Origin: Brachycybe producta
Lineage: Eukaryota; Arthropoda; Diplopoda; Playtdesmida; Andrognathidae
Direction of reading: 5' to 3'
DNA: 64,000 nucleotides
Assembly: GCA_036925085.1 (NCBI GenBank)
Contig: JAUPFP010000011.1
Coordinates: forward strand, 992,001-1,056,000
The notes beneath the pieces are model-generated. The model worked only from the letters and a program-made list of their open reading frames with translations. It did no database searches and had not been told where the DNA came from. The position numbers were made by a program, and so were the translations under genes. Shown here one piece after another: positions 3,773 through 63,542 of this stretch. Position 1 is the stretch's first letter. Each line of letters starts with the position of its first letter.

Positions 3773-4222
3773 TTAGAGTCGCACACCAGCAAGACTTAAT
3801 GGCATATTTAAACTTGTTTTTATCGGACATAAAATAGGTTTTAAGAAATCTTGAAAACGGTGAGTCTTTTGTCCATTGCAGTTTATTAGGAAGGACAGAA
3901 TACCTCCAGGTTTCTGTTTTATACCTATTACATTTTCTACGGGGCCTAGAAGTTTCTTTACAATCCCACCCACATTTAACAAGACATTTTTTGGTTTATA
4001 ATCATTTTTATCATCCTCCTTATGACCATCATCATTATCACCCTCACATTCCTCCTCCTCCTCATCATCATCATCATCCTCACATTTCTCCTCATCCTTA
4101 TCGTTGTCAGGATGATGATGGACAATGCTACGTCTGTGTATGTCTTTTAGGTCTATCTCATCTGCTACGAATCTCTTTTCGTGTTCAGGAAGGGTTTCTT
4201 CACTTTTAACCAAAGCCGAAAC
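3773..4222 (-). CDS. Secreted prepropeptide family, gene 1, exon 2 (acidic plus amphipathic tail)
   Basis: Second and last coding exon, 149 codons plus stop. It joins in phase 0 to exon 1 at 5503-5559, giving a 168-residue precursor. The acceptor is CGTAG before GTTTCGGCT, and exon 2 begins VSALVKSEE, so VSA completes a signal-peptidase site. A charged spacer follows, ending in IHRR-S at precursor residues 47-51. Next come a His cluster (HHH), a strongly acidic run of Asp/Glu with two Cys (about residues 57-91), and a hydrophobic or amphipathic tail with NVLLNVGGIVKKLLGP and SFLINCNG. A poly(A) signal lies 102 nt past the stop. The acidic tract could bind cations and the tail could associate with membrane, but function is unknown. 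Shared leader and intron with genes 2-7 make this a real gene rather than a chance frame. Confidence 0.75.
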   Translation of the reverse strand, partial: VSALVKSEETLPEHEKRFVADEIDLKDIHRRSIVHHHPDNDKDEEKCEDDDDDEEEEECEGDNDDGHKEDDKNDYKPKNVLLNVGGIVKKLLGPVENVIGIKQKPGGILSFLINCNGQKTHRFQDFLKPILCPIKTSLNMPLSLAGVRL

Positions 4223-4801
4223 CTACGAAAAAATATTAAGTTTGAAATGTGATTTTAGTTTTAGATGTTAAAATTGTAATACTATTTTCAACAATCTAAT
4301 CCATTATTCAAAAGTGTTGCTTTATATAAAGCTAAGCTCAAATTAGGGTTAAGCTTAGCATTATTTAATGCATTTTTTCAATATGAGGGTTCAAAAGGAA
4401 AATATGTTTAGCCGCTTACAGACCGAAATTTGATATTCGCGAACCACTCGGGAACTCTTTTAGAGCTGCTCGTGAGCATAATGTCTGCACTAAAAAAATT
4501 AGCGTGTTCGCGTTCACATGGTGAACCACTCTCAAGATTTTCTTTGTTAGTTCCTCAAGAGTTCGTGTTCTTAAATTTGTTTGTATTAAATTTGCACAAA
4601 TTGTTTGTAATAACTGGCGAGACAAGCTCGCTCACGTCTAAACTAGGTTCTCTGTTCGGCAGATGTTTAAGAACCAACCCTTTGATGTACCGTCTCAAAA
4701 GCAAACTTTGTACCGGTTTGCAAATGGCTCTAAAACTGTTCGCGAGCTCTCGTCTAAACCGGGTTCTGTTTTTGTTTGTTGCATGGAGTGAAACCAGTCT
4801 A

Positions 4802-5333
4802 AAGGCCTGGTTACACTATATTACTAGTCACTGCAAAATATACATGTATAACTAGTTTTGTTTCTATCATTATGTGTAACATACCTTGTGACCCTTCTCT
4901 GACCAGGATGTGACTGGATGGTGACCTCAAAGTTTTGAGTAGACCTCCATCCTACGTTTGATACTAGTTAGTAGTGATTAGCCAATCAGGAATCAGGTAG
5001 AAGAGACAACAAATTTGCAAAGAAATTAAAAGGAAACATGGCAAATCTTTTGAGTGCTGAAAACGATGGGATCTTAATCGATTTTTATAAAGGTATGTTT
5101 TTGTTTAATTATGTTAGTTTCTATTTAAAATAAATACACACAAACGCATACTTGCATGGCGCCATCTTGAATTTCTGTGCCTATTAATGATTGTCTAGTC
5201 TTCTGTGATATATCCCAAAGAGTAGTCACTAATGTAACATGCAAGTCTTCAATAGGTTTAAGACTAGTCACTCACCAAGCTAGTCATGCATGACTATTTT
5301 GCAGTGACAAGTAATATAGTGTAACCAGGCCTT
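4802..5333. mobile_element. TIR transposon derivative in gene 1 intron (TA TSD)
   Basis: The ends are AAGGCCTGGTTACACTATAT and its complement, with further matching sequence (TAGTCACTGCAAAATA against TATTTTGCAGTGAC). Both flanks are TA. Inside, at 5038, an ATG opens MANLLSAENDGILIDFYK and runs into a GTATGT splice donor. This resembles the first exon of a MADF/Myb-like protein of the kind carried by PIF/Harbinger-type elements, so it may be an internally deleted derivative. The family is inferred, but the inverted ends are plain. Confidence 0.65.
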
Positions 5334-5502
5334 TATGTAGGCTGGGCATGCATTTTAGTCGTTTAAATTATGGTAGCCTTTCGAATAAAATAATCTTAGC
5401 TCTTAAATCCTTAATTATGAACTGCCTTAACTTTAAAAACAAAGTTATCCAGTCCGCAGTTATGCCCCTGTTAGAATCCTAAAAGATAGTTTACAGTTTT
5501 AC

Positions 5503-5559
5503 CTGACTGCTGCAAATGACCACCAACATAACTAATAATAGTTTCACAATTGTATTCAT
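5503..5559 (-). CDS. Gene 1 exon 1: signal-peptide exon
   Basis: Nineteen codons, MNTIVKLLLVMLVVICSSQ, followed directly by the donor GTAAAACTG. The next member of the same exon type (genes 2, 3 and 4) is also exactly 19 codons. The intron to exon 2 is 1280 nt and carries a TIR transposon derivative. The ATG chosen is the first in frame and lies 91 nt below a TATA box. Confidence 0.8.
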
Positions 5560-5650
5560 TTTGTGGATTCAACTTTTATTCAATTTTCAAACGTTCTGAA
5601 GCATAGGACCTGTACTGTTGTTAATGCCTTTTTCATTTTACTTGAGCGGT

Positions 5651-5657
5651 TTTATAC
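5651..5657 (-). promoter_or_regulatory. TATA box of gene 1
   Basis: Minus-strand GTATAAA within AGTATAAAACCGC, 91 nt upstream of the gene 1 ATG. The same GTATAAAA core occurs at nearly the same distance in genes 2 and 3. Confidence 0.55.
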
Positions 5658-5916
5658 TATAATATATAAAGAAGTTTTTATATTCATATTTTATTTAAAT
5701 TAGATATTATTTCTTGATATCTGCAATTTAAATGATTTATCAACTTGTCTAGTAAACACATTCTCAAATGTACTTATTGTATAAAACACATTCATATTAT
5801 AGTCTTCCTGTTAGTTTTGTTGAAATTATATTTGCTTAGTGTGTAAAACCTGGATATTTTTTTTTCTTGCCAGACCACTAGTATATAATATTTATTTATG
5901 TCTGGCATATATAATA

Positions 5917-7703: not shown

Positions 7704-7720
7704 GTGCAGGCCCTTAACCT

Positions 7721-9566: not shown

Positions 9567-9570
<4 letters not shown>

Positions 9571-14014: not shown

Positions 14015-14887
14015 TTAGCCAAAATGAAAAATGTTATGAAAAAAGCCCTTTTTGTGGTGTTTATTATGTTTGGTGTGTTTGCCATGGCCGTCTTTATCTT
14101 TGTTACCATCGCCTCCATTACTCTTAACATCGACTTTCTCTCCGGCATCACCTTTTTTATCACTTTCTGCCTCTCCGGCATCATATTTTTCAGCGTCTCT
14201 CCCTTTTTCAGCCTCTTTTTCTTTTTCAGCCTCTTTTCCTTTATCAGCATCAACACCCTCTCCGGAATGGTCTCCTTCTCCTGCATCGCCACCAGCATTG
14301 CCTTCCTCGCCTGCATTTGCTTCCCCGCCTGTAACGCCTCCTCCGCCAGCATCGCCTTCCCCGCCAGCATCGCCTCCTCCGCCAGCATCGCCTCCTCCGC
14401 CAGCAACGCCTCCTCCGCCAGCAACGCCTCCTCCGCCAGCATCGCCTTCTCCGCCAGCATCGCCTCCTCCGCCAGCATCGCTTCCTCCGCCAGCATCGCC
14501 TCCTCCGCCAGCATCGCCTCCTCCGCCAGCATCGCCTCCACCGCCAGCATCGCCTTCTCCGCCAGCATCGCCTTCTCCGCCAGCATCGCCTCCTCCACCT
14601 GCATCGCCTTCTCCGCCTGCATCGCCTCTCTCGCCAGCATCACCTTCCTCGCCCGGATCGCCTGGTTCGCCGGATTCGGGTATATCGTGAGCTTCTCCAC
14701 CTGCATCGCCTTCCTCGCCCGCGTCACCTCCTCCACCTGCATTGCCTGATTCGGGTGCTACGGGTGTCTCGGCTTCTCCGCCTGCATCGCCTTCTTCACC
14801 AGCCTCTTGACGTTTATAAAGTGTCTTGATTGGTCTCCATTGATTTTCACGTTTTTCATTCTTTTCTATGCTTTCGGCTTTAAGGAC
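14015..14887 (-). CDS. Secreted prepropeptide family, gene 2, exon 2 (Gly-Asp-Ala repeats, Lys/His tail)
   Basis: Last exon, 290 codons plus stop, joined in phase 0 to exon 1 at 17267-17323 for a 309-residue precursor. The acceptor is TGTGTAG before GTCCTTAAAGCC, and exon 2 begins VLKAESIEKNEKRENQW. The signal should be cut after VLKA. A 22-residue basic/acidic spacer ends in LYKR-Q. Then comes a long array of six-residue units, consensus G-G-[GE]-G-D-A (18-nt period), from roughly exon residue 27 to 185. It is followed by a Lys/Glu/Asp-rich region and a C-terminus rich in Lys and His (KHTKHNKHHKKGFFHNIF). The frame stays open across 873 nt although it has no ATG near its start, which supports the splice model. 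Overlapping open frames on both strands are by-products of the 18-nt repeat. An extracellular hydrated or cation-binding matrix protein is a reasonable guess only. Confidence 0.78.
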   Translation of the reverse strand, partial: VLKAESIEKNEKRENQWRPIKTLYKRQEAGEEGDAGGEAETPVAPESGNAGGGGDAGEEGDAGGEAHDIPESGEPGDPGEEGDAGERGDAGGEGDAGGGGDAGGEGDAGGEGDAGGGGDAGGGGDAGGGGDAGGGSDAGGGGDAGGEGDAGGGGVAGGGGVAGGGGDAGGGGDAGGEGDAGGGGVTGGEANAGEEGNAGGDAGEGDHSGEGVDADKGKEAEKEKEAEKGRDAEKYDAGEAESDKKGDAGEKVDVKSNGGDGNKDKDGHGKHTKHNKHHKKGFFHNIFHFG

Positions 14888-17266: not shown

Positions 17267-17323
17267 CTGACTACAGAAGACAATCATCAGCAGCACTGAA
17301 GCAAATTTGAACATTATACCCAT
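17267..17323 (-). CDS. Gene 2 exon 1: signal-peptide exon
   Basis: Nineteen codons, MGIMFKFASVLLMIVFCSQ, then donor GTACATA. It is close to gene 3 exon 1 over KxASVLLxxVxCSQ. The intron is 2379 nt and carries the TTTGCCCTAAA array and a TA tract. Confidence 0.8.
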
Positions 17324-19190: not shown

Positions 19191-19670
19191 TCATTCCTCT
19201 TCTTCCTCTTCGTCGCCGGCCTCCTCGTCGCCGGCCTCCTCGTCGCCGGCCTCCTCGTCGCCGGCCTCCTCGTCGCCGGCCTCCTCGTCGCCGGCCTCCT
19301 CGTCGCCTGCCTCCTCGTCGCCTGCCTCCTCGTCGCCTGCCTCCTCGTCGCCTGCCTCCTCGTCGCCTGCCTCCTCGTCGCCTGCCTCCTCGTCGCCTGC
19401 CTCCTCGTCGCCTGCCTCCTCGTCGCCTGCCTGCTCGTCGCCTGCCTGCTCGTCGCCTGCCTGCTCGTCGCCTGCCTGCTCGTCGCCTGCCTGCTCGTCG
19501 CCTGCCTGCTCGTCGCCTGCCTGCTCGTCGCCTGCCTGTTCGTCGCCTTCCTGCTCGTTGTCGCTTCGTCTAACAAGTGGCCTCATTGAAAGTGTTTCAT
19601 CTTTAAGTTCTTCAAGTGACTGTATAGTTTCAGGACTGTACGACATTTTGTAATTTTCCACTTCAAGAAA
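19191..19670 (-). CDS. Secreted prepropeptide family, gene 3, exon 2 (Gly-Asp-Glu-Glu/Gln-Ala repeats)
   Basis: Last exon, 159 codons plus stop, joined in phase 0 to exon 1 at 21646-21702 for a 178-residue precursor. The acceptor is TTCTATAG before TTTCTTGAAGTG, and exon 2 begins FLEVENYKMSYSPETIQ, a variant of the usual V-L-x-A-E-N. A spacer of about 31 residues ends in LVRR-S. The rest is about 22 copies of a five-residue unit, first G-D-E-Q-A (8), then G-D-E-E-A (about 14), ending in EEEEEE. Unit length is 15 nt and neighbouring units are identical at the DNA level, so the array has expanded or been homogenised recently. The product would be extremely acidic. A poly(A) signal starts 2 nt past the stop. 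Frames on the opposite strand (Arg-Pro or Leu-Val-Ala repeats) are artefacts. Confidence 0.78.
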   Translation of the reverse strand, partial: FLEVENYKMSYSPETIQSLEELKDETLSMRPLVRRSDNEQEGDEQAGDEQAGDEQAGDEQAGDEQAGDEQAGDEQAGDEQAGDEEAGDEEAGDEEAGDEEAGDEEAGDEEAGDEEAGDEEAGDEEAGDEEAGDEEAGDEEAGDEEAGDEEAGDEEEEEE

Positions 19671-21645: not shown

Positions 21646-21702
21646 CTGACTGCAGACGACAACCAAAAGGAGAACAGAAGCTAATTTCATTGTTGCTTTC
21701 AT
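21646..21702 (-). CDS. Gene 3 exon 1: signal-peptide exon
   Basis: Nineteen codons, MKATMKLASVLLLVVVCSQ, then donor GTACAAA. Lys near the start, an 11-residue hydrophobic core and Cys-Ser-Gln before the donor match genes 1, 2 and 4. The intron is 1975 nt. Confidence 0.82.
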
Positions 21703-31806: not shown

Positions 31807-31863
31807 CTGACTGCAAATGACCACCAAAAACAGAAGAGCAGCAGCTTTCACCATGTTGTTCAT
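31807..31863 (-). CDS. Gene 4 exon 1: signal-peptide exon
   Basis: Nineteen codons, MNNMVKAAALLFLVVICSQ, then donor GTAAAACAT. The intron is 783 nt. About half of it is a hAT insertion. Confidence 0.82.
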
Positions 31864-43595: not shown

Positions 43596-43643
43596 TTGGT
43601 TGCAAACGACCACCAGCAGCAATATATAACGAAATTTCGCCAT
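43596..43643 (-). CDS. Gene 5 exon 1: signal-peptide exon
   Basis: Sixteen codons, MAKFRYILLLVVVCNQ, then donor GTATGAAAC. It is three codons shorter at the N-terminus than the other members, with the same LLLVVVC core. The intron is 868 nt. No TATA box is clear at the expected distance. TTTATATAAA at 43971-43980 is about 330 nt away. Confidence 0.75.
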
Positions 43644-47737: not shown

Positions 47738-47912
47738 CGGTAAGAAACTGATCGCCAAACATCAATTTACGTAGCTATTTTATTTGTGCGACAATTCTCT
47801 TCTATTTCTTGCAATAGACTCTTAATCGAATAAATGAGATGAAATAAAATAGAATTGTCGAACAATTAAAAGAGCTACGTTAATTGATGTTTGGAGATCA
47901 GTTTCTTACCGT
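47738..47912. repeat. Palindromic MITE (175 bp)
   Basis: CGGTAAGAAACTGATCGCCA and AAACATCAATTTACGTAGCT on the left have their complements on the right (AGCTACGTTAATTGATGTTT, GATCAGTTTCTTACCG). Confidence 0.7.
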
Positions 47913-48057
47913 TGTTGGCATGGGCCCACGTTATCCAGTCTGCTTGTCTGAAACTGGTAACTGCATCAAATAAATATAATAAATTGCCTATAAGACATCA
48001 CTTTTGGCAAACCTTGTATATATTTACAATAAAAACTAAGCAAATAGATGTAAAATG

Positions 48058-49327
48058 CAGGGCCGAATCAGCCTACATGGGGTTTATGGGCTAATATATA
48101 TGGGGCCCCTCCATAAATGACGTAAACCTTAATCTTATTGCGTAAAAACATACATTTTGGAGTACGATTATCAAATACACATTATGCCATCATTTACCAC
48201 TGATAATTTAGTTAAAGATGTTGAAGTGTCCTGACCACTGAATAAATATTCAGTACTCCTATATGAAATTAACAATTAATCAGTTAGCACTGAAACTAGT
48301 TTATTATACTAATGTAAATTTTATAACCCATTATGCAGCATTTGAGAATTTAATTATAATGTTCGTTGACGAGATTTTTCATGTACAAAATTGTCAATCA
48401 ATGCTGTGACATCAAGAGCATGGAACAAATTGGATTATACGCTCGTCATTGCTATATCATCCAGCCGATCTTGACACATTGTGGCCCTCAGGTTATTTTT
48501 GACACGTGACAATAAAGAAAATGTAAAGAAGGTCTGTTACTTTACCCTAGTTAGATCTATCTTAGAATATTGTTCCCCGATTTGGAACCCATTTAGAAAT
48601 AATCTAAAACAAGAAATAGAAATGGTGCAGCATAGGGCTGCAAGATTTGTAAAGGGACGGTATGCGTATACTGACAGTGTATCATCCATGCTCCAAGAGC
48701 TAGAATGGGAATCATTAGCAGGCCGAAGAAATGAGCAAAGCCTCGCTCTTCTGGGACGTTTGCTGTATTGTGATAACATTACCCTGCTTAATGGTTTACT
48801 AACTAGAAATCCTCGTAAAGGTAGATTTGGGCATTCAAAAACTTTCAAAGAATTAATGGCTAGGACTGATGCATATTTTTGGTCTTTTCTTCCTAATGTT
48901 ATTAGACTATGGAATTCTCTTCCTGTGAATAGTTCTTTGTTAGGACGATTTCAATTTCATGATGATGTCTTATTTTTAAATAATGACAATCAGTCGTGAT
49001 TGGGAGCAATCCCTCCCTGCCACATGGCTTTCGAGCTGATTGCAGGTGTATTTAATTGAATTGAATTGAATGTTGAAAATGATCGTTCAATCACTTTCAC
49101 AATTAATAATTCCAATAGTTTAGTTAACAGTATTGTTTTTTTTCTGTTATTTTTACATCATTAGGAGTTAGACAACTGTGGCGATAATGTGCGCCTTTGA
49201 TCATTTGCAAAAATCTTCGATTTACATTAATTACAGTCGTTACAAAAACACCACAATATAGTGGGTCCTTCAAAATTCGGATGCCCTTGGCTGCAGCCTT
49301 TTTAGCCCAATGGCTAATCCGGCCCTG
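48058..49327. mobile_element. hAT element (1270 bp, perfect 8-bp TSD) carrying a LINE insertion
   Basis: Left end CAGGGCCGAATCAGCC. The right end is the complement of CAGGGCCGGATTAGCCA. Perfect 8-bp direct repeats GTAAAATG lie at 48050-48057 and 49328-49335. The interior from about 48475 to 49075 is a LINE fragment. The rest has no transposase frame. Confidence 0.85.
48475..49075 (+). mobile_element. LINE 3' fragment inside the hAT element
   Basis: A 172-codon open frame with the typical post-palm region of CR1/RTE/Jockey-type reverse transcriptases (LVRSILEYCSPIWNP, VQHRAARFVKG, ARTDAYFWSFLPNVIRLWNS), then a short tail ending in repeated ATTGA. Severely 5' truncated but with an intact frame, so it is fairly young. 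Confidence 0.8.
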
Positions 49328-49643
49328 GTAAAATGTAATAATAATGTTTAAGGCAATAAAGAATTAACGTTTTAACTGATAGTGAATGCAATAAATGAAG
49401 AAAACATAACGCAGACACAGTTCTAAATATTACACAAAGTATACACTGACAAAGAAAGACAAAAACGACTATACAGTGTACGTGCAGGTAAAAAAAGACT
49501 ATAAATCTTCTTCTAGACTCTTGTATACAGACTCTGAGTCTGTATACATGAGTCTGTAATGTAGTCTTAATAACAAAAACTTTATTTTTGGAGTCTATAA
49601 ATAAAATTTTTATTGTGAACGTCATGTTGCAGACTCATGAGTG

Positions 49644-52600
49644 TGCCAAAAAGCAGCCAGGCTGGCACCCAGGTTGTTTCTAAAGAAATGTTCCCAAATA
49701 AGACACATGTTAGTATGAATGTCATTTTCCCAGCTGAGAAATAGGATGATATGTCACCCATCTCTCAACTAATGTTCACATTATTGATGAAGGACATCTA
49801 CAGTAGTGTTGTCTGCACTGCATGTTGCAACTAGTATTTCACTGTATGCACTCCTATAGTGTTGTCTGCACTGAATGTTGCAACTAGTATTTCACTCTAT
49901 GCACTCCTATAGTGTTGTCTGCACTGAATGTTGCAACTAGTATTTCACTCTATGCACTCCTATAGTGTTGTCTGCACTGAATGTTGCAACTAGTATTTCA
50001 CTGTATGCACTCCTATAGTGTTGTCTGCACTGAATGTTGCAACTAGTATTTCACTGTATGCACTCCTATAGTGTTGTCTGTACTGAATGTTGCAACTAGT
50101 ATTTCACTGTATGCACTCCTATAGTGTTGTCTGCACTGAATGTTGCAACTAGTATTTCACTGTATGCACTCCTATAGTGTTGTCTGCACTGAATGTTGCA
50201 ACTAGTATTTCACTGTATGCACTCCTATAGTGTTGTCTGCACTGAATGTTGCAACTAGTATTTCACTGTTTGCACTCCTATAGTGTTGTCTACACTGAAT
50301 GTTGCAACTAGTATTTCACTGTATGCACTCCTATAGTGTTGTCTGCACTGAATGTTGCAACTAGTATTTCACTGTATGCACTCCTATAGTGTTGTCTGCA
50401 CTGAATGTTGCAACTAGTATTACACTGTATGCACTCCTATAGTGTTGTCTGCACTGAATGTTGCAACTAGTATTTCACTGTATGCACTCCTATAGTGTTG
50501 TCTGCACTGAATGTTGCAACTAGTATTTTACTGTATGCACTCCTAGTCCAAGTCTGTACTACTTGCAGATGTGCTCCTGGGTTTCCTTCTGTACTGCATA
50601 GCAAAAAACGATTGCTGCTGCAAATGATCAAAATGATGGTAACAGGTCTACCTTTAAAAGTTCTTGAACAGACACTTTCCACAGCACATTTTGGTCCCGG
50701 CCAGACTTATTGACTGCCATCAAAAGATGATTGCATGCAGTCACTTTCTCCAGAAGCAAGCAACGATACAAGATGTGATCAACATTGTCAGATTCATTTC
50801 CCTCACATGGACACTGGCCATTCGTATTTGTGAGCCAAAAGTATTAAGTAGCAATTAAAAGGGCCCTGGTATGTCAGCAGCTGTACCAGACGTCCTGAGA
50901 AAATGGCTCCAGCCAGAGTCACACTGGGGAGCCAACCATAAAGCTGGTGACCAGTGCTCACTGCATCCCACATTGACTGCCACATGCACACTTCCTCAGC
51001 CTGAACATCAATGTGCAATCTAAACCAAGGAATACTATGGTCAGTTATCTCCTGTGCTGATGTCCACTGCCGAGCAAGTGTATCTGCCCATTCATTCCAG
51101 GTATAGCCAGCATGTGCCTTAATCCAAGCCAAGCGAATATGCCGACCATATCGGAAAAAATGGCACAGTGCGGCATTTGTTTCGTATGAATCATGATATG
51201 AACAGTCCCCATTTGACACCACTGTGAGTGCCGAAAGTGAAACAGAAAAGATCATTGCCCTCGAACTCCGGGTGTAAGTACATCACCCACTTGAACTGCC
51301 CTTTGAATGGCAACTAACTCAGCCTGAAACACAGAGCACATGCCTGGAAGCCGGCACCCCCATGTTCATATCTCCTTGTTCTGTTTCACCACCACACAGG
51401 CTGATCCCACCTGTTCATTGAGTTTGGAACCATCAGTATAGACACAGATAGTTGCTGCCCCTACTAGGCCTGGAGTCCATTTCTCCATGGGAAACTCAAG
51501 CCTTTTTCCTGGCTGTGTAGCATCCTGGATATCAACAGGTAGGTACAATGATGTTGCTGCTTCTCAACATATCCAGAGTTTGTGGTGGCCAAATGCTAGT
51601 GTAGGCACAGGTGAGCAGCCTAAAAGAATTTGAAGTGCTCTAGTTGGGGCTGTATGGAAGGCTCTGGTGATAGCCAATAAGAATGGTCTTTAGGCAGTGT
51701 CTAAATAGTGCACTTTCAAATGTTTAGTAGCATTTTCCCCCAAACTTCTGCCCCATATAGGAGCATTGGCTTCACAGCACCATTGTAATTGGCATGCAGC
51801 ACAGCTGGGCTCATGCCTCATGTCCAGAAACAGCAATAGTTTGGCAGAAATGCATCCAATTTTGCCTTGAAGGTATCACACTTGAGGAACCCATATAAAT
51901 TGTGGATCCACTAGAACTTCTAGGTAGTAAATTGTGTCTGCTGCCGATATCCTCACCTCCCCAACAAGAAGAGAAGGACCTAGCTGAATGCTTCACCATG
52001 GATAGAAGAGTACAGTTGTCTTCTCTACAGCATATTCCAGCTTCATTCCCAATGCCCACAAACAGCATTGCACCCAAAAGGCATAAAACTTTCTCTCCAA
52101 AGACTGCACAGAGGGTCCATACAACAATGCCAATGTATCATCTGCAAAGGCTTGTACATGGTCATTGGGAGTGAGATATGGCCTGATCTGTGCAAACCAA
52201 GACTCCATCAGCACCAACCATAACACAGGGCCCATACATGATCCCTGAAGGCATCCCATAGTTACTGCATGCTCCACTGTTCCATAGTGCACATAGCAAT
52301 CAGACAGGAAAGAAGACACAAGATCATACAAATTTCTTGGGCATTGGGCATTCCGGAGGCCCTGGAGTATAGCCGGATGCCCTGTGCAGTTGAAAGCATT
52401 CTTGATATTGAGGGCAACTGCCAGAACATGATTTTGTTGCTGCCATGATTGTCAGGTGTGCTGAACGTACTTATGTATGGCCAGAAATGCCTGCTGACCC
52501 CCATGGAATCTAAATTGTTCCTCAGAAAACAGTTTCTTTGTCTCCATGAAAAAACCCAGTCGATGGGCAACCAGCTTATCGAGCACCTTTCCCAACACCG

Positions 52601-53088
52601 TAAAAAGACAAATTGGTCGAACACGGTCACTACCTAATTTAGGTAGCCATACAACTCGGGCATGCTTCCAAATGAGTGGAAAAATGCCCTGATGGAGACA
52701 TTCATTTAAGAGAAGTGGCCATTCTTTACCAGCTGCCTTCACCACATGGGAAAGACCTGCTGGAGGGAAGCCATCAATCCCAGGAGCTTTGCCTGTTGCA
52801 AAGCTCTTCACAACTTCCTGGAGTTCGAAAATGGTGAAGGGGAGATCTAAAGTTGAGGTACATTCTGTTCTTGCTTGTGCCTGCATTTCCTGTTGCAAAG
52901 GGGTATCCTTGCTAAGATCATCCAGAGGGAAGTAGTCCTGGAGAAGAGCTTTAGCTGTTTTCTTGTTGTCATGGGTTCATGTGCCATCTGGGCGTTTCAT
53001 TAATTTAAGAACCATTGGTGGCTTTCGTGTCCCAGAGAGAGTTTTGTAGGGGACCCCAAATGGATCAGTTGATGATACCCGTGACTTC
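49644..53088 (-). mobile_element. LINE with RNase H (R1/I-like), 3.4 kb, 24-bp TSD
   Basis: Minus-strand parts in order. Around 52452-52898 is RT fingers (FATGKAPGIDGFPPAGL). At 51993-52331 is palm (MGCLQGSCMGPVLW and VQAFADDTLALLYG, the catalytic FADD). At 51366-51548 is RNase H start (VYTDGSKLNEQVGSA), and at 50803-51255 RNase H end (WIKAHAGYTWNEWADTLARQ). Several frame changes break it. It is flanked by a 24-bp direct repeat with one mismatch (49620-49643 and 53089-53112, core TCATGTTGCAG and CTCATGAGTG). Its 3' side contains a 53-bp minisatellite. Confidence 0.8.
49802..50548. repeat. 53-bp minisatellite in the LINE tail, about 14 units
   Basis: Unit begins CTATAGTGTTGTCTGCACTG and ends CACTGTATGCACTC. 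Units are nearly identical, with single-base differences. It lies between the RNase H end and the LINE 3' boundary. Confidence 0.9.
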
Positions 53089-53323
53089 CGTCATGTTGCA
53101 GTCTCATGAGTGGGAGTGGAAATGTAGCAATATATTGTATTTAGTTATTTGTACCACAGTTGTCCAAGAAATTGCTTTAAACTTCTTAATAAACAATTTC
53201 TTGAAATTTTGTGCAACATTAAATGCACTTTGCTGTACAAAATAATAAACTATTTTAAACTATAGGAATACATATAAAAACTGAAAAAACTATTCACATC
53301 TGCAAAAAAAGAAACTATATATT

Positions 53324-53930
53324 TGTGAGCTTTTGACATCGACTCTATATTTTTACCAACTTGAAGATGTTGTTTTCTATAGCCCAATCTCCTCTGCATC
53401 ATGCAGTGGCCGCACGGAGAAGATTCAAGCTACAGAAAGAGTTGGTTGGAGATCGATTGCAATCATCCTCCTGCATGGGGTGAAATCTGTGCAGAAGGAT
53501 GGTGGCCATCTTTCTTGGTCGACACTGATATGCATCTTCCTTTGTTGTTTACCCAAATGAAGATGCTGTAGCTGCTCCAGGATCTGTATGGCTCCTTTCC
53601 TTATGGTGTCTCCAGCCTCTGTAGAGAAGTGTTAGTTTCCAGACATAAAGACAATGCAATTTCTCATTGTAACACTTTTATTCATCCTTGCTCAGAAACA
53701 TCAAGAGTTCAAGAATGAATATGTTTATCAGAGGTGCGTCCTCGGGCCCAAGATGTGATACGGATAAAGATCTACGTAGTACAACAAGTTTGAGCAAAAT
53801 AAGAACGACAAACAAAGAGGAACATGGTTCTTTTATACCTTGGACCTGTGTACACCTACAAGGTGTAACCAGGTCCAAGTGACCATGGTTTTAAGTGTAT
53901 CAATCCGCCACTACTTATTCTTAAGCTGAT
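53324..53930 (-). mobile_element. Solo LTR-like fossil, copy 2 (incomplete)
   Basis: Shares the outer end GCTCACA (minus strand), the AATAAAAGTGTTAC signal, the TATAAAAG word and the GGTCCAAGTGACCATGG region with copies 1 and 3. The other outer end is not seen. Confidence 0.55.
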
Positions 53931-54349
53931 GCTACACATAGCAATAGTCAAGCAACAATACTGGTTGTAGCAATAGTAGTTTCCCATTTGGTGCAAGCAA
54001 CACCTATAATACATGTTGTAACTCATGAAACTTACATGAAAGCAACAACCATTGAAACAAAGTAGTTGTCAGCAAAAGACTAGATATTTTGTTTCGTCTT
54101 TCTCTTTTTCATAAGTTGAAAATTTGAATTAGTCATGTGATTATTCAAGCGGTTTTTATTGGCTATTGGCTGAAATGGTTGCGCAAAAATATGAAACAAT
54201 AGAGTAACACGGCTATGTTGCTTTTAAGTTGCTGAATTGTTGCTACGTGTAGCATCGGCTTTATGAACATAGATTTTTTTCTTTTCTCCACTTTTTTTAA
54301 TGGGAGTTCGAGTATATGAACTTTTGATTATAGGAACTAGAGACTGAAA
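53931..54349. other. Spacer
   Basis: Contains palindromic words (AGCAACAATAC, GTTGCTACGTGTAGCA) that hint at a worn MITE. Nothing firm. Confidence 0.35.
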
Positions 54350-55078
54350 GTAGCAAATTTTTTTGGTCCCATCCGATTCCATCCAACTAGGGCTTCATCC
54401 CGTCCCAACCCATTCCATCCCATGATCCCACAGATTCCATCAGTCCCACGAGTCCTATCAGTCCCATCGATCCCATCAGTCCAATGAATCCCATCAGTCC
54501 CACATGTCTTATCAGTCACACCTGAACCATCTATTTTTGTTTAGTCCCATAATATCCCATGGGATAGAATGGGGAGGTTTATAATGACTAGTATTGTTTA
54601 CTAGTGTAGATCTATATTATGTTGGGGGTGACTGTAACTTTAAGCAGACTACATTGGCTCTTCTCTCTATCACCAGTCTCATGGGCCCACCAGTTCCATT
54701 AGTTCTTATCCAAATACTCTCATGGGTTCCACCCATCCCATTCAGTCCCATAGATCCCACGAGTCCCATGGATCCCACGAGTCCCATGAATCCCATCAGT
54801 CCCATGGATCCCATCAGTCCCATGGATCCCATCAGTCCCATGGATCCCACAAGCACCATGGATACCATCAGTCCCATGGATTCCATCAGTCCCATGGATT
54901 CCATCAGTCCCATAGATCCCATCAGTTGCATGGATCCCATCAGTCCCACAAGTTCCACAGGCCCCATCAGTCCCACCAATCCCATCAGCCTCACAGTTCC
55001 CACAGGTCCCAACAGATCTACCAGTCCCATCTATTTTTGTTTACTCCCATCCCATCCCATGGGATGGAATTTCCTCCT
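54350..55078. repeat. Degenerate minisatellite of ATCCCATCAGTCCCATGG units, two blocks
   Basis: Two arrays (54360-54575 and 54650-55078) of about 10-20 bp units. Each ends in the same tail (CTATTTTTGTTTA, then CCCATGGGAT). Open frames in several frames are by-products of unit length. Confidence 0.85.
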
Positions 55079-55800
55079 TAATGGGAGCCCATTTTGGTCT
55101 CTAATAGGAACTATGCGTGTCCGACATTTAGTTTTGATAATCAACGTTCTACTGTAATATTTGAAACAGGTTATGTTTGATAGTGCATAATGCGATTAAT
55201 GACAATTTCAGCAAACGGAACTTTGATGCTGTTTAAATAAATATGTCATTCATCGATTTCCAACAAACAATATGGGTTTTGTGCTATCCTAAATTGGATA
55301 CAGCAACTTTATTTCTTTTTACAACTACTGTAAAAGCTGGTGAAGGTACCACTCTGAAGATAAAACATTTTCTACCTGAAGATAAAATATTTTTTCATGT
55401 AATGCTTGCCTAAACCTAGAAAGTTAAATACATTGAAATATTGAATGCTATTAAGCATAGCCTTATTAAGGACAAACCAACAATATATCAAATTTCATTT
55501 ATTCAGTTAATATTGTATCTATATATGGTGTTAATATTTAAATACTAGTGGGGTACTTCCAAGGTTTGTAGAGTATGTAAGGTGTGCTCATATCACGAAG
55601 CTCCGCCCAAGTCCATATTGAAACGTCACTGGTGACGACACTTTTTCTATTTATGTTTTGCCATGTTTCACACGGTGAAAAAACAATGGTTTAGCTTGCG
55701 GTAAATATCTTGTTTTTTCTATAGATTTTTTTATGGTATTAATACTTTTTATTGAATTTTTGTTACAACTAGACAAATTCTTTTCTACGTTTTTGTTGAC
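55079..55800. other. AT-rich spacer
   Basis: ACTAGTGGGGTAC near 55545 looks like an isolated Helitron-like 3' tip in reverse. No gene is seen. Confidence 0.4.
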
Positions 55801-57060
55801 CCCCCTTAAACCCATGTTCATCCCCCTTAAACACATGTTCATCCCCCTTAAACCCATGTTCATCCCCCTTAAACCCATGTTCATCCCCCTTAAACCCATG
55901 TTCATTCCTTTTAAACCCATGTTCATCCCTCTTAAACCCATGTTCATCCCCCTTAAATCCATGTTCATCCCCCTTAAATCCATGTTCATCCCCCTTAAAT
56001 CCATGTTCATCCCCCTTAAATCCATGTTCATCCCCCTTAAACCCATGTTCATCCCCCTTAAACCCATGTTCATCCCCCTTAAACCCATGTTCATCCCCCT
56101 TAAACCCATGTTCATCCCCCTTAAACCCATGTTCATTCCTTTTAAACCCATGTTCATCCCTCTTAAACCCATGTTCATCCCTCTTAAACCCATGTTCATC
56201 CCCCTTAAATCCATGTTCATCCCCCTTAAATCCATGTTCATCCCCCTTAAATCCATGTTCATCCCCCTTAAATCCATGTTCATCCCCCTTAAACCCATGT
56301 TCATCCCCCTTAAACCCATGTTCATCCCCCTTAAACCCATGTTCATCCCCCTTAAACCCATGTTCATCTCCCTTAAACCCATGTTCATCCCCCTTAAACC
56401 CATGTTCATCCCCCTTAAACCCATGCTCATCCCCCTTAAACCCATGTTCATCTCCCTTAAACCCATGCTCATCCCCCTTAAACCCATGTTCATCTCCCTT
56501 AAACCCATGTTCATTTCCCTTAAACCCATGTTCATCCCCCTTAAACCCATGTTCATCTCCCTTAAACCCATGTTCATCTCCCTTAAACCCATGTTCATCT
56601 CCCTTAAACCCATGTTCATCTCCCTTAAACCCATGTTAATCTCCCTTAAACCCATGTTCATCCCCCTTAATCCCATGTTCATCCCCCTTAAACCCATGTT
56701 CATCCCCCTTAAACCCATGTTCATCCCCCTTAAACCCATGTTCATCCCCCTTAAACCCATGTTCATCCCCCTTAAACCCATGTTCATCCCCCTTAAACCC
56801 ATGTTCATCCCCCTTAAACCCATGTTCATCCCCCTTAAACCCATGTTCATCCCCCTTAAACCCATGTTTGTCCCCCTTAAACCCATGTTTGTCCCCCTTA
56901 AACCCATGTTTGTCCCCCTTAAACCCATGTTCATCCCCCTTAAACCCATGTTCATCCCCCTTAAACCCATGTTCATCCCCCTTAAACCCATGTTCATCCC
57001 CCTTAAACCCATGCTCGTCCCCCTTAAACCCATGCTCGTCCCCCTTAAACCCATGTTCAT
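55801..57060. repeat. 21-bp minisatellite, about 60 units
   Basis: Unit CCCTTAAACCCATGTTCATCC, highly regular, with blocks of shared variants (for example TTAAATCC, GTTTGTCC, ATCTCCC) that show multi-unit duplications. Because 21 is a multiple of three and the unit lacks stops, long frames appear on both strands. None looks like a gene. Confidence 0.95.
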
Positions 57061-57235
57061 CTGCCATTGTGATCTGCATTGTGATCGTTCAGCTTTGTGG
57101 CATTTCTATACCAATTTTCATGGTGATCGGTTGAACGGTATAGAAGTTGATATACTGCAGCGCCATCTGGTGGTGACTTACAACAAAGGGGACAGCATAA
57201 AAACCTTCTCCATGAAAAAGTACATATAAATGCTA
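57061..57235. repeat. Conserved flank of minisatellite, including 90-bp block copy 2
   Basis: 57137-57226 repeats the block at 16816-16905 with few changes, including GCGCCATCTGGTGG at 57160-57173. Confidence 0.75.
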
Positions 57236-58045
57236 ATTTTCATATTAATTGGTCAAAAGGTGTAGGAGCTTAGCGAGTACATACATGTTTGTGCCATTTA
57301 AAAAAAGCAGATTCTATCTGGGGGAAAAACGTCCGTCACACAATGATCACTCCATGTATAAAATTGATGTCCACCCTTCTAGTTTGTTAAAAAATACTAG
57401 TCTTATTTTTAAACATCTGTAAACATCTATGGTGTGACAAATTTGACACCACCCGTGCCTGTTCACCTGATGCACAATGGTGTGTGAGGCTGTACATTCC
57501 AAGAACCCTTTTTGTCCTATTATTTATTTATATAATAGAAATCACCTTGTTTTTACATTTTTTTTGTATCAATCAAGTAAGCATGTTTTTGTTTGAACAA
57601 GTATTTCATCAACATCAATCTGCTATGAACAATGTACACAAAATGGAATCAATTCTGTCATTGTTTTGTAATGGTCATTTCCTAATAAAAAAATAGTATG
57701 CTTGACTATCCTTGACTTTTGTATCTTCAGGGTCAACAATTAAAACGAAATAGTCTTGTAAAATTTTGAATAATTACATAGTGCAATCAAAAAGTCCAAC
57801 GCCTGGCTAAAAAAAATAACTCGCTAACACAAGACCTTATTCAATGGGACATCCATTTAAAGTAGTCTATCACATCATACATCAAAGCCAGTGCCGTTTC
57901 AACTTTCGAAAATGTTCCTGAAAGCTCTTTTGTGGAACCCATGTTGAGAATGGTTGTTGTTTTTGCTTTAATTTCAACTTAACTTAAGAATTCCATTTTT
58001 TTATAAAAACAAAAAACTGGGAAACTTATTAAAATAAGTGTGCAT
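57236..58045. other. AT-rich spacer
   Basis: A short minus-strand frame near 57850-57950 (MGSTKELSGTFSKVETALAL) is not recognised. Confidence 0.3.
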
Positions 58046-58749
58046 TGTGAGCTTTTGACGTCGACTCTATTTTTCTGACCAACTTGTAGATGTTGTTTTC
58101 TGTAACTCGTGCTTCTCTGCATCGCACGGTGCCTGCACGGAGAAGATTCGAGCTACAGAAAGAGTTGGATGGCGATGGATTGCGATCATCCTCCTGCATG
58201 GGGTGAAATCTGTGCAGAAGGATGGTGCCATCCTATTCTCCATCAATGCTGATATACATCTCCTCCTGTTGATAGTTACCCGCAGTAGAAGATGTTGTAG
58301 CTGCATCAGGAGCTGTATGCGCTCTTTACCTTATGGTGTCTCCGGCCTCTGTAGAGAAGTTATTAGTTTCGGAACATAAAGACAACGTAGTTTCTTATTG
58401 TAAAACTTTTAATCATCTTCGTAAGGAAACATGAAGATTACAATGACGAATGTTGTATATCAAAGGTGCGTCCTCATGCCCATGATATGGTACGGAAATA
58501 TTCAACGTAATACAACAAGTTAGAGCAAAGACAAGGACGAGGACCAAAGAGGAACATGGTCCTTTTATACTTTGGACCTGTGTACACCTATGAGGTGTAA
58601 CCAGGTCCAAGTGACCATGGGCCTAAGTGTATCACTCCACGCTAGGGTATGAGTCAGAGGTGTGAGTCAGACAGGGGAAGGGGACGAGCAAGAGTTGTTT
58701 ACCTCCCAAGCCATGGTTTTGGCGGGATCACAAGTTCCCGGGTGTTACA
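58046..58749 (-). mobile_element. Solo LTR-like fossil, copy 3 (704 bp)
   Basis: On the minus strand it runs from TGTAACACCC to GCTCACA with a TATAAAAG word in the same place as in copy 1. GCAT lies immediately outside both ends (58042-58045 and 58750-58753), a 4-bp target duplication. Confidence 0.65.
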
Positions 58750-59124
58750 GCATCATAGCACTAAGGTCATAATTATACTTTATTTTAATTTAACTTCCAG
58801 TTTCAAAACTGTTATTGACTGACTGTGGTCTATTTAACAGGTGGTGTATTAGTCTAAATAGGTCCTTCAAAATATCATTACATAACACTATCAACATTCT
58901 AAATAAACTGTTTGGTGACCTCAATTCATATAAATGATTCTAGGTTGTTTACAACTTTTGACAACCTAATTAACCTCATAATAATACATATGAAACTTAA
59001 ATTTTTTCCAAGAACAGGCATGGTTTTGCTCTATCATTTATCATTAATAAATATTTAATCATAGAGAACGAAAAATAATAAACAGTACCGGTATGCCAGA
59101 TGGATCATAAAATGTGTCTATCTG
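58750..59124. other. AT-rich spacer
   Basis: Nothing recognised. Confidence 0.4.
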
Positions 59125-59432
59125 TAATGGGTCTTCCTAAAACGCAGAAAACGCAGAAATTGAAGAAACTGCAGAAACGAATTTAAAACAACCCAAATTA
59201 ATGGAAAATTGCAGAAAATGCAGAAACATATTTAAAACAACCCAAATTAATGGGAAATTGCAGAAAATGCAAAAACTGCAGAAACGTATTTAAAACAACC
59301 CAAATTAATGTGAAATTGCAGAAACTCGTTAATTTGGGTCATGTTAAATACGTTTCTGCAATTTCACATTGATTTGGGTCCTTTTATGTGAGTTTCTGCA
59401 GTTTCTGCAATTTCTGTGTTTTAGGGTTTTCC
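59125..59432. repeat. Tandem plus inverted repeat of GCAGAAACGTATTTAAAACA units
   Basis: Three direct units of about 64 bp (AACAACCCAAATTAATG, AAATTGCAGAAA) are followed by an inverted partial copy (GTTAAATACGTTTCTGCAAT, GTTTCTGCAGTTTCTGCAAT). Outer ends CCTAAAACGCAGAAA and TTTCTGTGTTTTAGG are complementary. Confidence 0.75.
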
Positions 59433-59629
59433 ATCTGAAATTAGTACCTGAAAGTTTTAAACAATTATGTTTGTGTGACTGGATGGCCAAGAAATCACAA
59501 CTGTTTATAGCTCTTTTAACCATTTTACAAAACAGTTACACAATACATCACCAAAAAAATCCACAAAAATCTTCACTGTAGTTTCCGCTTCACATACGCA
59601 ATATGGGTCATAAACACAAGTTTTGTTGG

Positions 59630-60284
59630 TTGGGGGTCACTACAGCTACCAAGGCTCACAAGCGCTACTAGGGGGAGAACCGCTACTTGGGTCACTACAG
59701 CTACCAAAAAATAGGGGGACAAAATATAGACCTTTTTTATCACTTTCTCGTCACTACAGCTAAAAAAATAACCCTTTCTCCATAACCTAACCGAACCTTA
59801 CCTAATGAAACATTACCGAACCATACCTAACCGAACCTTAACGATCCTAACCAAAAAGTACCGATACTAAAAGATCCTACCAAACCTAACCGATCCTAAC
59901 CTAACCGATCCTAACCAAACCTAACCGATCCTAACCAAACCTAACCGATCCTAACCAAACCTAACCGATCCTAACCAAACCTAACCGAACCTAACCGATC
60001 CTAACCGAACCAAACCGAACCTTACCGATCCTAACCAAACCTAACCAAACCTTACTGAACATAAGGAAACCTAATCGAACATAATGAAACCTAACTGAAC
60101 CGAATGTCATCTAATCTAAACTAAACGTATTGATAAATAAAAAGGCCTATATTTTTTGGTAGCTGTAGTGACCCTTGGTAGCTGTAGTGACCCTTTTGAT
60201 GAAATAAAGGTCTATATATTTTTTTTGGTAGCTGTAGTGACCCTGGTAGCTGTAGTGAGCCTAGTAGCTGTAGTGAGCCAGTCC
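59630..60284. mobile_element. CACTACAGCTACC MITE with telomere-like core, copy 2 (655 bp)
   Basis: Same ends as 10294-10720. The core array is longer and mixes CCTAACCGAA, CCTAACCGAT and CCTAACCAAA. The flanks GTTTTGTTGG and GTTTTGTTTT are a probable worn target duplication. Confidence 0.75.
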
Positions 60285-60797
60285 CGTTTTGTTTTTAGGT
60301 TCAACTTCTAACTATCAAACTATATACCATATTCACATATTTAATTTGTTTCCACTCTAAATTAATATTTTGTAACATGAGGGCTAAAATTGACCTTAGG
60401 GTTATCAAATTACTACACACGAATCAAGGGCCTGCTAAAGAATAACAACATCCAAATATGCATTTATACTTTACAAAGTGACACAAAACAAAAATTTCAA
60501 AATGATTGCTATGGTGACACATTTGTATTTTGTTTATACTACACACTATGCTTCTAATGTACGAGCATATTTTCATACTAGAAAAATTAGTGAATAAGAA
60601 ACTAGTATTTAGTCCGATTCCTAGCCAAAATAAAACATGAACATTATGAATGGGTGACCAACACGGGATTTATTTGAGGCAATATGGCCTCTATAATTAT
60701 GTAGTCATTTTTGAATTTTGCCTGAAACTCGCCCCTCTCCTCCCCCCTTCCGCATCTTTATGTTATTTGTGATTTCTCCAAACGAAACATACTTAAG
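60285..60797. other. AT-rich spacer
   Basis: Nothing recognised. Confidence 0.4.
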
Positions 60798-61226
60798 GCG
60801 CATTCACACTAGCCTGGTTTACCAGCTGCTGGTTCCTGTTTGCTGGTTGTAGCCTGCTAGCAGCATAGTGTGAACTGCTACCAGCAGCTGCTTTCTTCAG
60901 CAAGCTAGTGATTTTAACAGTGGCTTGTGAAGTTGAACATGTCCAACTTTAGCAGCTACCAGCTGGTCATGTGACCCCCTTCCTGCTGCTACCAGTGTGC
61001 TACCAGTCAATGTCGCTGGTAGTGGCACTAGTGGGTAGTTGAAACTCCACTGCTTGGGTTGGTTGTTGTTAGAGTTTGTGTTTTTGCAAAATGGTGATTG
61101 GATGACTTGTGCTAATTATACCAGCAGTGACTGGACAAGTGTGAACCCAAAGCAGCTGCTGCTTGCTGTTGCTGCTAATAGTCACAGGCAACCAGCAGCT
61201 TGTAAACCAGCCTGGTGTGAATGCGC
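60798..61226. mobile_element. TIR MITE with GCGCATTCACAC ends
   Basis: GCGCATTCACACTAGCCTGG and TTTACCAGCTGCTGGTT at the left have their complements at the right (AACCAGCAGCTTGTAAACCA, GCCTGGTGTGAATGCGC). The interior is full of CAGCAGCTG words. 429 bp with no transposase. Confidence 0.75.
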
Positions 61227-62888
61227 ATTTGCTGTGCCACGAGCAAAAAAGTTTGGAAACCATTGAACCATTTTGCCTGCATAGGCCTAGTATTTCAAAG
61301 AAACTGACTTTAGATCTATATACAGTACAGGACTTGTAAATAACAAATATTTTTCTTTTGTTTTGCATCTGATAAATATGCAGTGGGGCATGATTAACTT
61401 CATAAATAACCTGTTCTATCAATAGTAGTCATTATAAAGTGATTTCTTTATCAAAACAAATATTACACATATAAGTGTGTGTTGAACACACATCGCACCA
61501 AGGAAGTTTACGCAGATAACTGCTTTGTACTTACTGTATATATAAAAAAAAAAGTTTGCTCCACGGTGGCAAAACCTATTAACATCATGATTACAATGCT
61601 AAAAATTTCTTTCATTATGCTGATTGTTGTGATAAGTTAACATGTATGAAATAATAAACTTTTTATTGGTGTTAAAAGTGAAGTAATATTCTAATAAATT
61701 GAAACGATTGGTGCCAGAACAATCCTGGTGCGGTTTTTTTATAAATGCCATAAACTTCGTCCTCAATCTACTGTTGTACAGAGAGTTGACCTAGTTTTGC
61801 ACAGCTGATTTCTCTTTTGACATTAAAAGGATACAAACATCCTTATTTAGGTCGCACCTCGCTGGAGCCTGGGACTCTTCTTCCCAGTTTTACATCTAAA
61901 AACAAAAATATTTATCTGATAAGCAGTAACATGGAGTCTATGGTGTCGCATTTTTTTTGTATTTATGTCTTAATATTAAGACGAATCATACCTAATATTT
62001 TGAAGACCACTGGTCAATCAGTTGATTGTTCCAGAGTTAGACTAGTTCTGAACTGATTACGAAGTTTTTATTTCTTTTTCAGGATTATTTTTGAACTCAT
62101 GATTTTTCCACTTATAAACTCTGATCCAGGTAGCTGGTACGAAGGAAACCAACACAATCTAACAGAGGCTTTTAATTTGGCAAAAGCCTGTTGTGTAGCA
62201 GACAGCTAAAAGATTCCTGGAAAGCAGTGTATTTGACTGCTTATTGCTTTTTAAATTACTTTTCAAAAAATAACTTTGTGCAAAAAAGAGAAAACCGAAC
62301 ACATCATGTTAAACGGCTATACAAGCTTTTGCAGCATAGTTACCTCACTCATGCAATAGCATCTTGGGCGTTTTTAAAAGAATTTGTTTTCTTTTAGATA
62401 AAATGACACAATCCTACATTTGTGTCAACCCTTCTGACGTCACAAGCATCCTACGATGAAGTGGACATACGTCTCAATCTAAAAAAAAATTGCAAACCAA
62501 AACGTGTTCCTTATTGCCCTAATCCCCCATAATTGTCAATAATATTAACAACACAATACAACATTTGTCCTAAGCCACGGCAGGAAAACATTGCATGTGG
62601 CTGCTAACTTCAGCATAGATCTGCTTATGTAAGTAGGCTTGCTACTAGCTGCATGAATACTTCCAAGTTAGGAATTTATTGTACTAATCAATACAGTACA
62701 TTACATTTTGATTTTTTTGGTTCTTGGGTTTATTCTACAGTGTACTTCGCCACATTTTTTTGTCTTCAAAGTTAAACGTTTATAAAAAATCAATTTGTGC
62801 ATTTATTAATGCTTATAAAAACATTACTTTTAAAAGAAACAAGCACCAGTGAAGAGTTCTATCACACACACACGCCATGAGACTACAC
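61227..62888. other. AT-rich spacer
   Basis: Only short frames, none recognised. If gene 6 had a distant first exon it could lie here, but I found none. Confidence 0.4.
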
Positions 62889-63117
62889 GCTTTGTCTGTG
62901 TATAACGCTGTACAAACAAGGACAAAAACGTTTAAGCTCGTCGGAATTTATTTAAATTTAAATGAACCGGTTTTTTCTCATGGTCAACTTTAGGTTGAGC
63001 TCTCCCCATCCAAGAACCCAAACAATATTAAGGTGCTTCTACTGTAGTTAAATAATTTTAGTAGCAAAATTAAATTAGAATTTTGTTCCCGTCATTTATG
63101 ATGGGTTACCCCACAAG
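62889..63117. mobile_element. Helitron-like nonautonomous element, copy 6 (short form)
   Basis: CTTTGTCTGTGTATAACGCT to CCCGTCATTTATGATGGG then TTACCCCACAAG. The site AAATTAGAATTTTGTTCCC is uninterrupted by the Mutator-like MITE. Confidence 0.6.
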
Positions 63118-63350
63118 TAGTAGTATATAGTACATAAAAGTTTTTCCATGCAGGTTTTATCAAGCTCTGTAACCACTAAAACAAAAATACGTTTTTTTTT
63201 TGCAATCAAAGGAGTCTGGTCAGAGGCAGAGTTAACCTATATATTACAAATGTATTTTAATTCTAGAAGTGATGTAATAAAAAAAAAAACAAAAAAAAAA
63301 ACAATTTTTTTTGTCTTACTATTTTCTCTCCTCTCAATTTTAATAGCTTA

Positions 63351-63542
63351 TTAGCCGGGCGGGCTCGCCACACCCAAGACAAATTGTGCAATTGAAAAAC
63401 CAATTTGTATAATGGGGCTAAGTAATCCTTGTATAAAGCTTAAAATACTGGATGCGCTGCGGACGAAAAGGTCCTTAGCATGTAACTGTTGTTCATTTTC
63501 AGGTTGAGGATGCATTTCGTCATTATTTTCAGCAAGAAGGAC
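63351..63542 (-). CDS. Secreted prepropeptide family, gene 7, exon 2 (hydrophobic peptide)
   Basis: Exon of 63 codons plus stop, acceptor TTTGGTAG before GTCCTTCTTGCT. It starts VLLAENNDEMHPQPENEQ, then the spacer ends in DLFVR-S at exon residue 28, a 24-residue spacer after VLLA. The last 35 residues are hydrophobic with almost no charge (ASSILSFIQGLLSPIIQIGF then SIAQFVLGVASPPG). Exon 1 should lie to the right of the window: nothing like it occurs in 63543-64000. Of all members its layout is closest to gene 4. Confidence 0.7.
   Translation of the reverse strand, partial: VLLAENNDEMHPQPENEQQLHAKDLFVRSASSILSFIQGLLSPIIQIGFSIAQFVLGVASPPG

Follow-up and report, generated by a model that had tools for sequence, protein, structure and literature searches.

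The 64,000-base window analysed here (C11:992001-1056000, where C11 is contig JAUPFP010000011.1 of the 295.3 Mb assembly of the millipede Brachycybe producta) lies within a tandem array formed by a single superfamily of predicted secreted prepropeptide genes, at least 21 in number, with at least 22 leaders once two further along the contig are included. We lean towards the view that the products are host-defence or defensive-secretion peptides, in a tandem superfamily whose precursors are organised like those of frog skin or cone snails. An initial annotation of the window had described a cluster of seven two-exon secreted prepropeptide genes, in which one leader drives very different cargo. 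The cluster exists, and array-wide sequence supports both the two-exon design and the strongly diversified cargo behind one leader, but its size was underestimated, as we count at least 21 genes, one of them truncated.

We examined C11 to 1.246 Mb, giving a joined stretch of 254 kb (containing 2500 N at 233001-235500), in which a leader profile, sequence patterns and a rule located 20 leaders together with 21 second exons, every one of them on the minus strand; the 21 genes are numbered by increasing coordinate. The profile search of the 254 kb returned 20 minus-strand leaders, 16 of which were the profile's own input and four of which were new (E 1.9e-10 to 4.8e-6). Thirteen second exons were found by pattern, two others came from the initial annotation, five were recovered with the profile, at E 3e-8, 0.019, 0.023, 0.026 and, weakly, 5.1, and one by rule; the weak members, the second exons of gene 17 (profile E 5.1) and gene 20 (found by rule), are kept in the counts. 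The second exon of gene 9 reaches a stop after 23 codons, and this truncated gene is left out of all mature-part counts. Both halves of the gene plan are specific to this locus. For example, the leader-end pattern has 12 matches in the whole genome, ten of them on the C11 minus strand within ~0.3 Mb (reversed control, 1), and the two off-cluster matches of this strict pattern proved on inspection not to be leaders. A loosened leader pattern placed 17 of its 21 genome-wide matches on one strand within C11:1.009-1.310 Mb (reversed control, 0), the four off-cluster matches being counted by pattern alone. Similarly, all nine matches to the second-exon pattern in 295 Mb (up to two mismatches) fell within C11:1.009-1.310 Mb (reversed control, 2). 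Two more leaders occur further along C11, at 1279560 and 1310133, so the array continues past 1.246 Mb; a second exon for the leader at 1310133 was not found in the adjoining sequence, which includes a run of N.

The coding part of the leader exon spans 45-69 bases, the predicted introns are in phase 0 and 570-7616 bases long (783-2379 bases in the five pairs within the window), and the second exon runs to a stop, 20 of the 21 being open for at least 48 codons. The exon boundaries proposed initially hold in the window: AG precedes the start base of each of the seven second exons, six of which begin V-S-A or V-[LV]-x-A (VSA, VLKA, VLFA, VVFA, VLVA, VLLA), the third being the variant FLEV, and five signal-peptide exons, each started by an ATG, have their final bases at 5503, 17267, 21646, 31807 and 43596 and are followed by GTA. 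These five leader exons end Cys-[Ser/Asn]-Gln, gene 1 ending Cys-Ser-Ser-Gln, and the proposed leader consensus K-x4-LL-x-V-V-x-C-[SN]-Q fits them only loosely, as gene 1 carries one extra Ser, gene 2 has I-V and gene 4 has L-F. Upstream, TATAAA lies 50-150 bases before the ATG in 17 of 20 genes against a background of 11%. In addition, 14 of 20 genes have TAAACAA, which we take to be a forkhead-type core, at 60-300 bases upstream; leaving out the near-identical genes 13-16 gives 10 of 16, and the background is 8.5%. This motif was picked after inspecting promoters in paralogues that are not independent. All 21 genes have a poly-A signal no more than 500 bases after the stop, though in such AT-rich DNA this is a weak test. 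The fourth residue of the second exon is Ala in 16 of 20 precursors and is likely to be the signal-peptidase site. Further on, 14-39 residues into the second exon, comes an Arg-ending site chosen by eye as the processing site. The mature part is preceded by hydrophobic-x-x-Arg in 17 of 20 precursors, the fourth residue before the assumed cut being Leu in 13, Ile in two, Phe in one and Met in one (n=20), and the assumed cut ends in Lys-Arg in eight of 20, Arg-Arg in one and a single Arg in 11. The net charge of the spacer ranges from -4 to +5. For gene 5 the cut was assumed at ITSR for the motif, site and plasticin counts, and the whole second exon was used for the charge and composition counts.

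The mature parts had been described as sharing no sequence beyond leader and spacer, a claim that is only half right in view of this hydrophobic-x-x-Arg site in 17 of 20 precursors and of an amphipathic stretch, ending in Gly or Ser, that 12 of the 20 mature parts hold (mean 0.67 and at most 4 over 2000 shuffles). LLG[GP] likewise occurs in ten of 20 (shuffles: mean 2.3, maximum 7), both patterns having been composed after inspection of the sequences. Given this common helix motif and processing site, the acidic and glycine tracts look like additions to a shared plan. Eight products (genes 7, 8, 10, 11, 12, 13, 15 and 16) would be just 23-45 residues long after the assumed cut. Cysteine is absent from 15 of 20 mature parts, the other five having two to four, and Gly makes up 36-46% of the mature parts of genes 2, 13, 14, 17, 19, 20 and 21, with Tyr-rich stretches in genes 20 and 21. 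A single-sequence model of the gene 4 second exon gave three helices at low confidence (predicted local distance difference test, pLDDT, 67), and that of gene 6 was unreliable (pLDDT 53).

The ten pairs that can be formed from genes 12-16 share 93-100% identity in the leader and 72-95% in the 3' untranslated region, whereas their mature parts are 41-53% identical in all but pair 15/16, where the figure is 81%; measured above the codon-shuffle mean, mature identity is 0.06-0.11 in pairs 10/11, 12/13, 13/14 and 14/15, and 0.36 in 15/16. The mature parts of pair 15/16, the youngest duplicates, align without gaps over 44 residues, and 24 of the 25 changes between them are nonsynonymous (nonsynonymous rate dN 0.295, synonymous rate dS 0.030, dN/dS ~9.7, one-sided binomial p 0.006), against two nonsynonymous changes and one silent change in leader and spacer (dN/dS 0.5). 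The same mature parts carry 25 mismatches in 132 bases, compared with 91 in 3245 aligned non-coding columns (odds ratio 8.1, p 6e-13). With 3 kb of flank taken on each side, the similar region begins ~400 bases ahead of the ATG and ends ~2.3 kb beyond the stop, and intron lengths are 1284 and 3714 bases; this extent together with the unequal introns suggests a duplicated unit rather than two alleles. An old mature part whose flanks had undergone gene conversion would carry many silent changes; pair 15/16 has one, which disfavours conversion alone. The mature part of pair 15/16 is thus under diversifying selection.

A word-based search with an alignment of 12 of the 21 precursors found no homologue at E ≤ 0.01 among 7996 candidates, although low-complexity words may crowd out relatives, and the leader and spacer of gene 12 gave no protein candidate sharing three words. 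Five of the 21 products were scanned against Pfam, with weak matches to RXT2_N, DUF7554 and DUF2606, none above cut-off. Among the titles listed on millipede secretions, on silk and on antimicrobial peptides of myriapods, none mentions such a family, a weak indication that it is absent from the literature. On this basis we regard the array as a new family whose kind is known but whose cargo is unusual. Its nearest parallels, in frog skin, cone snails and mussels, are parallels of layout. Plasticins belong with the dermaseptins, and frog plasticin-L1 and leptoglycin are Gly-Leu-rich with poly-Gly runs, as are some of the array's mature parts. Genes 4 and 19 score against plasticin-L1 above all 1000 of their own shuffles, genes 1, 8, 10 and 15 reach p 0.003-0.044, and p<0.05 was obtained by six of 20 mature parts with plasticin-L1 and six of 20 with leptoglycin (40 tests, uncorrected). 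The Gly-Leu-rich amphipathic form, present in part of the family, supports a plasticin-like way of working rather than kinship. Frog-skin dermaseptin-type precursors, as PMC7693824 describes them, have a conserved signal peptide with a terminal Cys, a short spacer, a basic site and a variable mature peptide, and the array genes share this layout. However, the dermaseptin acidic spacer ending in Lys-Arg is not general here, as the array spacer is not consistently acidic and Lys-Arg occurs in eight of 20; the host is moreover an arthropod, some of the cargo is far longer and of low complexity, and the word-based search found no homologue.

Other tandem or two-exon peptide systems resemble the array in part. 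In the conotoxins, by the account in PMC3862624, an intron parts the signal peptide from the mature part (in the A superfamily, two exons flank a single intron) and point mutations concentrate in the mature-peptide exon; the array likewise has an intron between signal peptide and mature part, and amino-acid change centred on the mature part is seen in one array pair. The Cys framework of conotoxins is lacking in the 15 of 20 mature parts without Cys, and a venom apparatus is not expected in a millipede. Mussel myticalins, presented in PMC12294457 as linear, lineage-restricted, tandem-clustered and hyperdiverse defence peptides, are like the array in being linear, clustered in tandem and hyperdiverse, but their mature parts are described there as consistently cationic and placed before an anionic C-terminal extension, whereas those of the array are mostly neutral or acidic and follow the spacer. 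The pseudoscorpion checacins are linear secreted arthropod peptides from a small gene set, which PMC8778599 describes as cationic components of the venom, with cleavage at a LEAP motif; LEAP occurs in none of the 21 array second exons.

We infer splicing, cleavage, helix formation, membrane action and tissue from the sequence, and the mechanism we propose would run as follows. The typical gene would be transcribed from a TATA promoter, its leader exon running to Cys-Ser-Gln and being joined across a phase-0 intron to a second exon that encodes the end of the signal peptide (V-x-x-A), a short spacer of charged residues, the hydrophobic-x-x-Arg site and the mature peptide. Cleavage by signal peptidase would follow the conserved Ala, and cleavage by a convertase the processing-site Arg, to release in the core form a short, mostly Cys-free, Gly/Leu-rich amphipathic helix, to which some genes would have added acidic, Gly-Asp-Ala or poly-Gly tracts. 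The released peptides may act on the membranes of microbes or attackers, in a gland secretion, on the cuticle, in the gut or in the haemolymph, and conflict with these microbes or attackers would drive their diversification. The pattern had initially been likened to venom, host-defence, mucus or matrix families; diversified cargo and selection in one pair are as in defence or venom peptides, yet venom in the strict sense is unlikely because the animal is a millipede, with ozadene glands rather than the venomous forcipules that its group lacks in the account given by PMC7523956. The venom of a pseudoscorpion or centipede, which the cargo at first suggests, was rejected: mitochondrial tRNA sizes and gene order do not match those given for a pseudoscorpion in PMC3325882 or for Strigamia in PMC4368715, and COX1 points to millipedes.

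Several observations weigh against a defensive role. Selection was measurable in one pair only, and there the contrast in nonsynonymous and silent counts, mature part versus leader plus spacer, falls short of significance (Fisher p 0.21). Helix motif, cut sites and promoter motif were all picked once the sequences had been seen. Most mature parts are neutral or acidic, unlike classical cationic antimicrobial peptides, and net charge is positive in just three of 20 (gene 11, +3; genes 14 and 18, +1 each). Genes 2, 3 and 17 consist of repeats with no such helix and resemble matrix or low-complexity proteins. None of the 20 promoters has an NF-kB-like site; this absence says little, as less than one site per orientation is expected by chance (background 4-5% per orientation), and the comparison is uninformative on immune induction through kB sites. 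A purely structural secretion is a live alternative, though one we regard as unlikely: the Gly-rich, acidic and hydrophobic members would form sticky or fibrous material such as a defensive glue, silk, or the lining of a moulting chamber or of eggs. The glycine content of seven mature parts (36-46%), the (GDEQA)n repeats of gene 3 and the Tyr-rich genes 20 and 21 would suit such a material, as would the forkhead-type TAAACAA upstream of 14 of 20 genes, since forkhead drives silk and salivary gland genes; some millipedes also have spinnerets. Sticky substances are, in addition, among the ozadene secretions mentioned in PMC7523956. An excess of amino-acid change in a 44-residue mature part would however be unusual for a structural polymer, and the eight products of just 23-45 residues also count against this reading.

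Both kinds of product could also come from the same array. One leader superfamily would then supply Gly-Leu membrane peptides together with the acidic or poly-Gly gel or glue proteins that carry them, that is both halves of a secretion, the peptides being mostly uncharged, fast-evolving and convergent with plasticin and leptoglycin, and all members descending from one ancestral helix peptide by repeat insertion after the processing site; we hold this combined scheme to be speculative and doubtful. Accessory-gland proteins are typically encoded in tandem, secreted behind a conserved leader and quick to evolve. Since the array has the same layout, and its sequence holds nothing contrary, a reproductive role has to be considered, with peptides of the semen or egg coat driven apart by sexual conflict, but the Gly/Leu helices and the likeness to frog-skin peptides suit defence better, and we hold such a role to be improbable. 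A largely dead or non-coding duplicate array, with open frames that are of low complexity by chance, might explain why gene 9 stops after 23 codons and why no leader was found for gene 6. It is very improbable, given that 20 leaders keep frame and donor, that TATAAA recurs in 17 of 20 promoters, that an open frame of at least 48 codons persists in all but one of the 21 second exons, and that one mature part is under codon-level selection.

If the peptides are indeed defensive, a rapidly evolving peptide arsenal would form a new layer on top of a mainly small-molecule millipede defence, for which PMC7523956 names alkaloids, quinones, phenols and cyanogens; the same source mentions that proteomics of another millipede's ozadenes recovered 119 proteins with antimicrobial properties. 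The results suggest a second animal lineage arriving at frog-like Gly-Leu peptides, and the array allows the gain of acidic, Gly-Asp-Ala and poly-Gly tracts by a helix peptide to be traced within one family. Gene prediction could easily miss such an array because the first exon has fewer than 70 coding bases and the second is often of low complexity.

Table 1. Predicted array features in the window (window positions; aa, amino acids)
Feature	Position	Strand	Remarks
Gene 1 leader exon, coding part (MNTIVKLLLVMLVVICSSQ)	5503..5559	minus	donor CAG/GTA
Gene 1 TATAAA	5651..5656	minus	97 bases upstream of ATG
Gene 1 second exon, 149 aa	3773..4222	minus	spacer, acidic Asp/Glu tract, amphipathic VGGIVKKLLGP, Cys-containing tail
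Gene 2 leader exon, coding part (MGIMFKFASVLLMIVFCSQ)	17267..17323	minus	
Gene 2 TATAAA	17431..17436	minus	
Gene 2 second exon, 290 aa	14015..14887	minus	LYKR site, Gly-Asp-Ala array, basic tail
Gene 3 leader exon, coding part (MKATMKLASVLLLVVVCSQ)	21646..21702	minus	
Gene 3 TATAAA	21807..21812	minus	
Gene 3 second exon, 159 aa	19191..19670	minus	variant FLEV at start; LVRR site followed by (GDEQA/GDEEA)n
Gene 4 leader exon, coding part (MNNMVKAAALLFLVVICSQ)	31807..31863	minus	
Gene 4 TATAAA	31956..31961	minus	
Gene 4 second exon, 81 aa	30778..31023	minus	LDVR/G site, helix-GGGGGG-helix, end LLGGLLGGLNL
Gene 5 leader exon, coding part (MAKFRYILLLVVVCNQ)	43596..43643	minus	
Gene 5 second exon, 67 aa	42524..42727	minus	
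Gene 6 second exon, 235 aa	46298..47005	minus	hydrophobic, internal 84-base duplication
Gene 7 second exon, 63 aa	63351..63542	minus	

Within the window (Table 1), a poly-A signal lies ~100 bases downstream of the gene 1 second exon, the Gly-Asp-Ala array of gene 2 is built of an 18-base unit (14292-14663) and the (GDEQA/GDEEA)n of gene 3 of a 15-base unit (19205-19558). A strict TATAAA was not found 50-150 bases upstream of the gene 5 ATG. The leader of gene 7 lies just beyond the window, at C11:1059194-1059256. For gene 6, a search of 47006-63400 found no leader; three candidate exons stood at the hydrophobicity threshold and none fits the family. In the stretch where gene 6 stands without its leader, window positions 61581-61633 hold a leader-like match on the plus strand (E 4e-4), the sole plus-strand match below E 1, which is possibly an inverted remnant. 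The window also contains a 21-base tandem array at 55794-57061 (~60 copies, 96% matches) with several frames open, in which no match to the leader or second-exon profile was found at E<1, a 53-base tandem array at 49804-50545 (14 copies at 98%), and retrotransposon remnants on the minus strand at 50803-52976, with weak RVT_1 and RNase H matches below Pfam cut-offs.

Elsewhere in the assembly, a 15,359-base mitochondrial contig carries COX1, which under the invertebrate code reads TGA as Trp and is otherwise free of stops. Of the twelve best matches to this COX1, nine are millipedes, with a top identity of 85% (Antrokoreana gracilipes, Julida; Abacion, Callipodida), two are scutigeromorph centipedes and one is a dobsonfly, in keeping with a millipede. 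COX1-like copies also occur in large nuclear contigs (C1:12697416-12698753 and C17:3332011-4029047), one of them nearly full length with a single internal TAA; these may reflect either mitochondrial DNA copied into the nucleus or joins made in assembly, and they tie the mitochondrial contig to the nuclear assembly. On mitochondrial contig C442, nad4L, nad4 and nad5 share the cox1 strand, and no protein gene except nad1, between trnP and trnI, was seen on the opposite one (1033 bases unread); an ND1 translocation is reported for Brachycybe in PMC3712015. A search for the hemocyanin middle domain found one genomic place, C245:42720-43950, in three pieces. Hemocyanin exons gave an equivocal placement of the animal, the best PDB match being a Limulus-type hemocyanin for one exon and an AGAP004976 phenoloxidase for the other.

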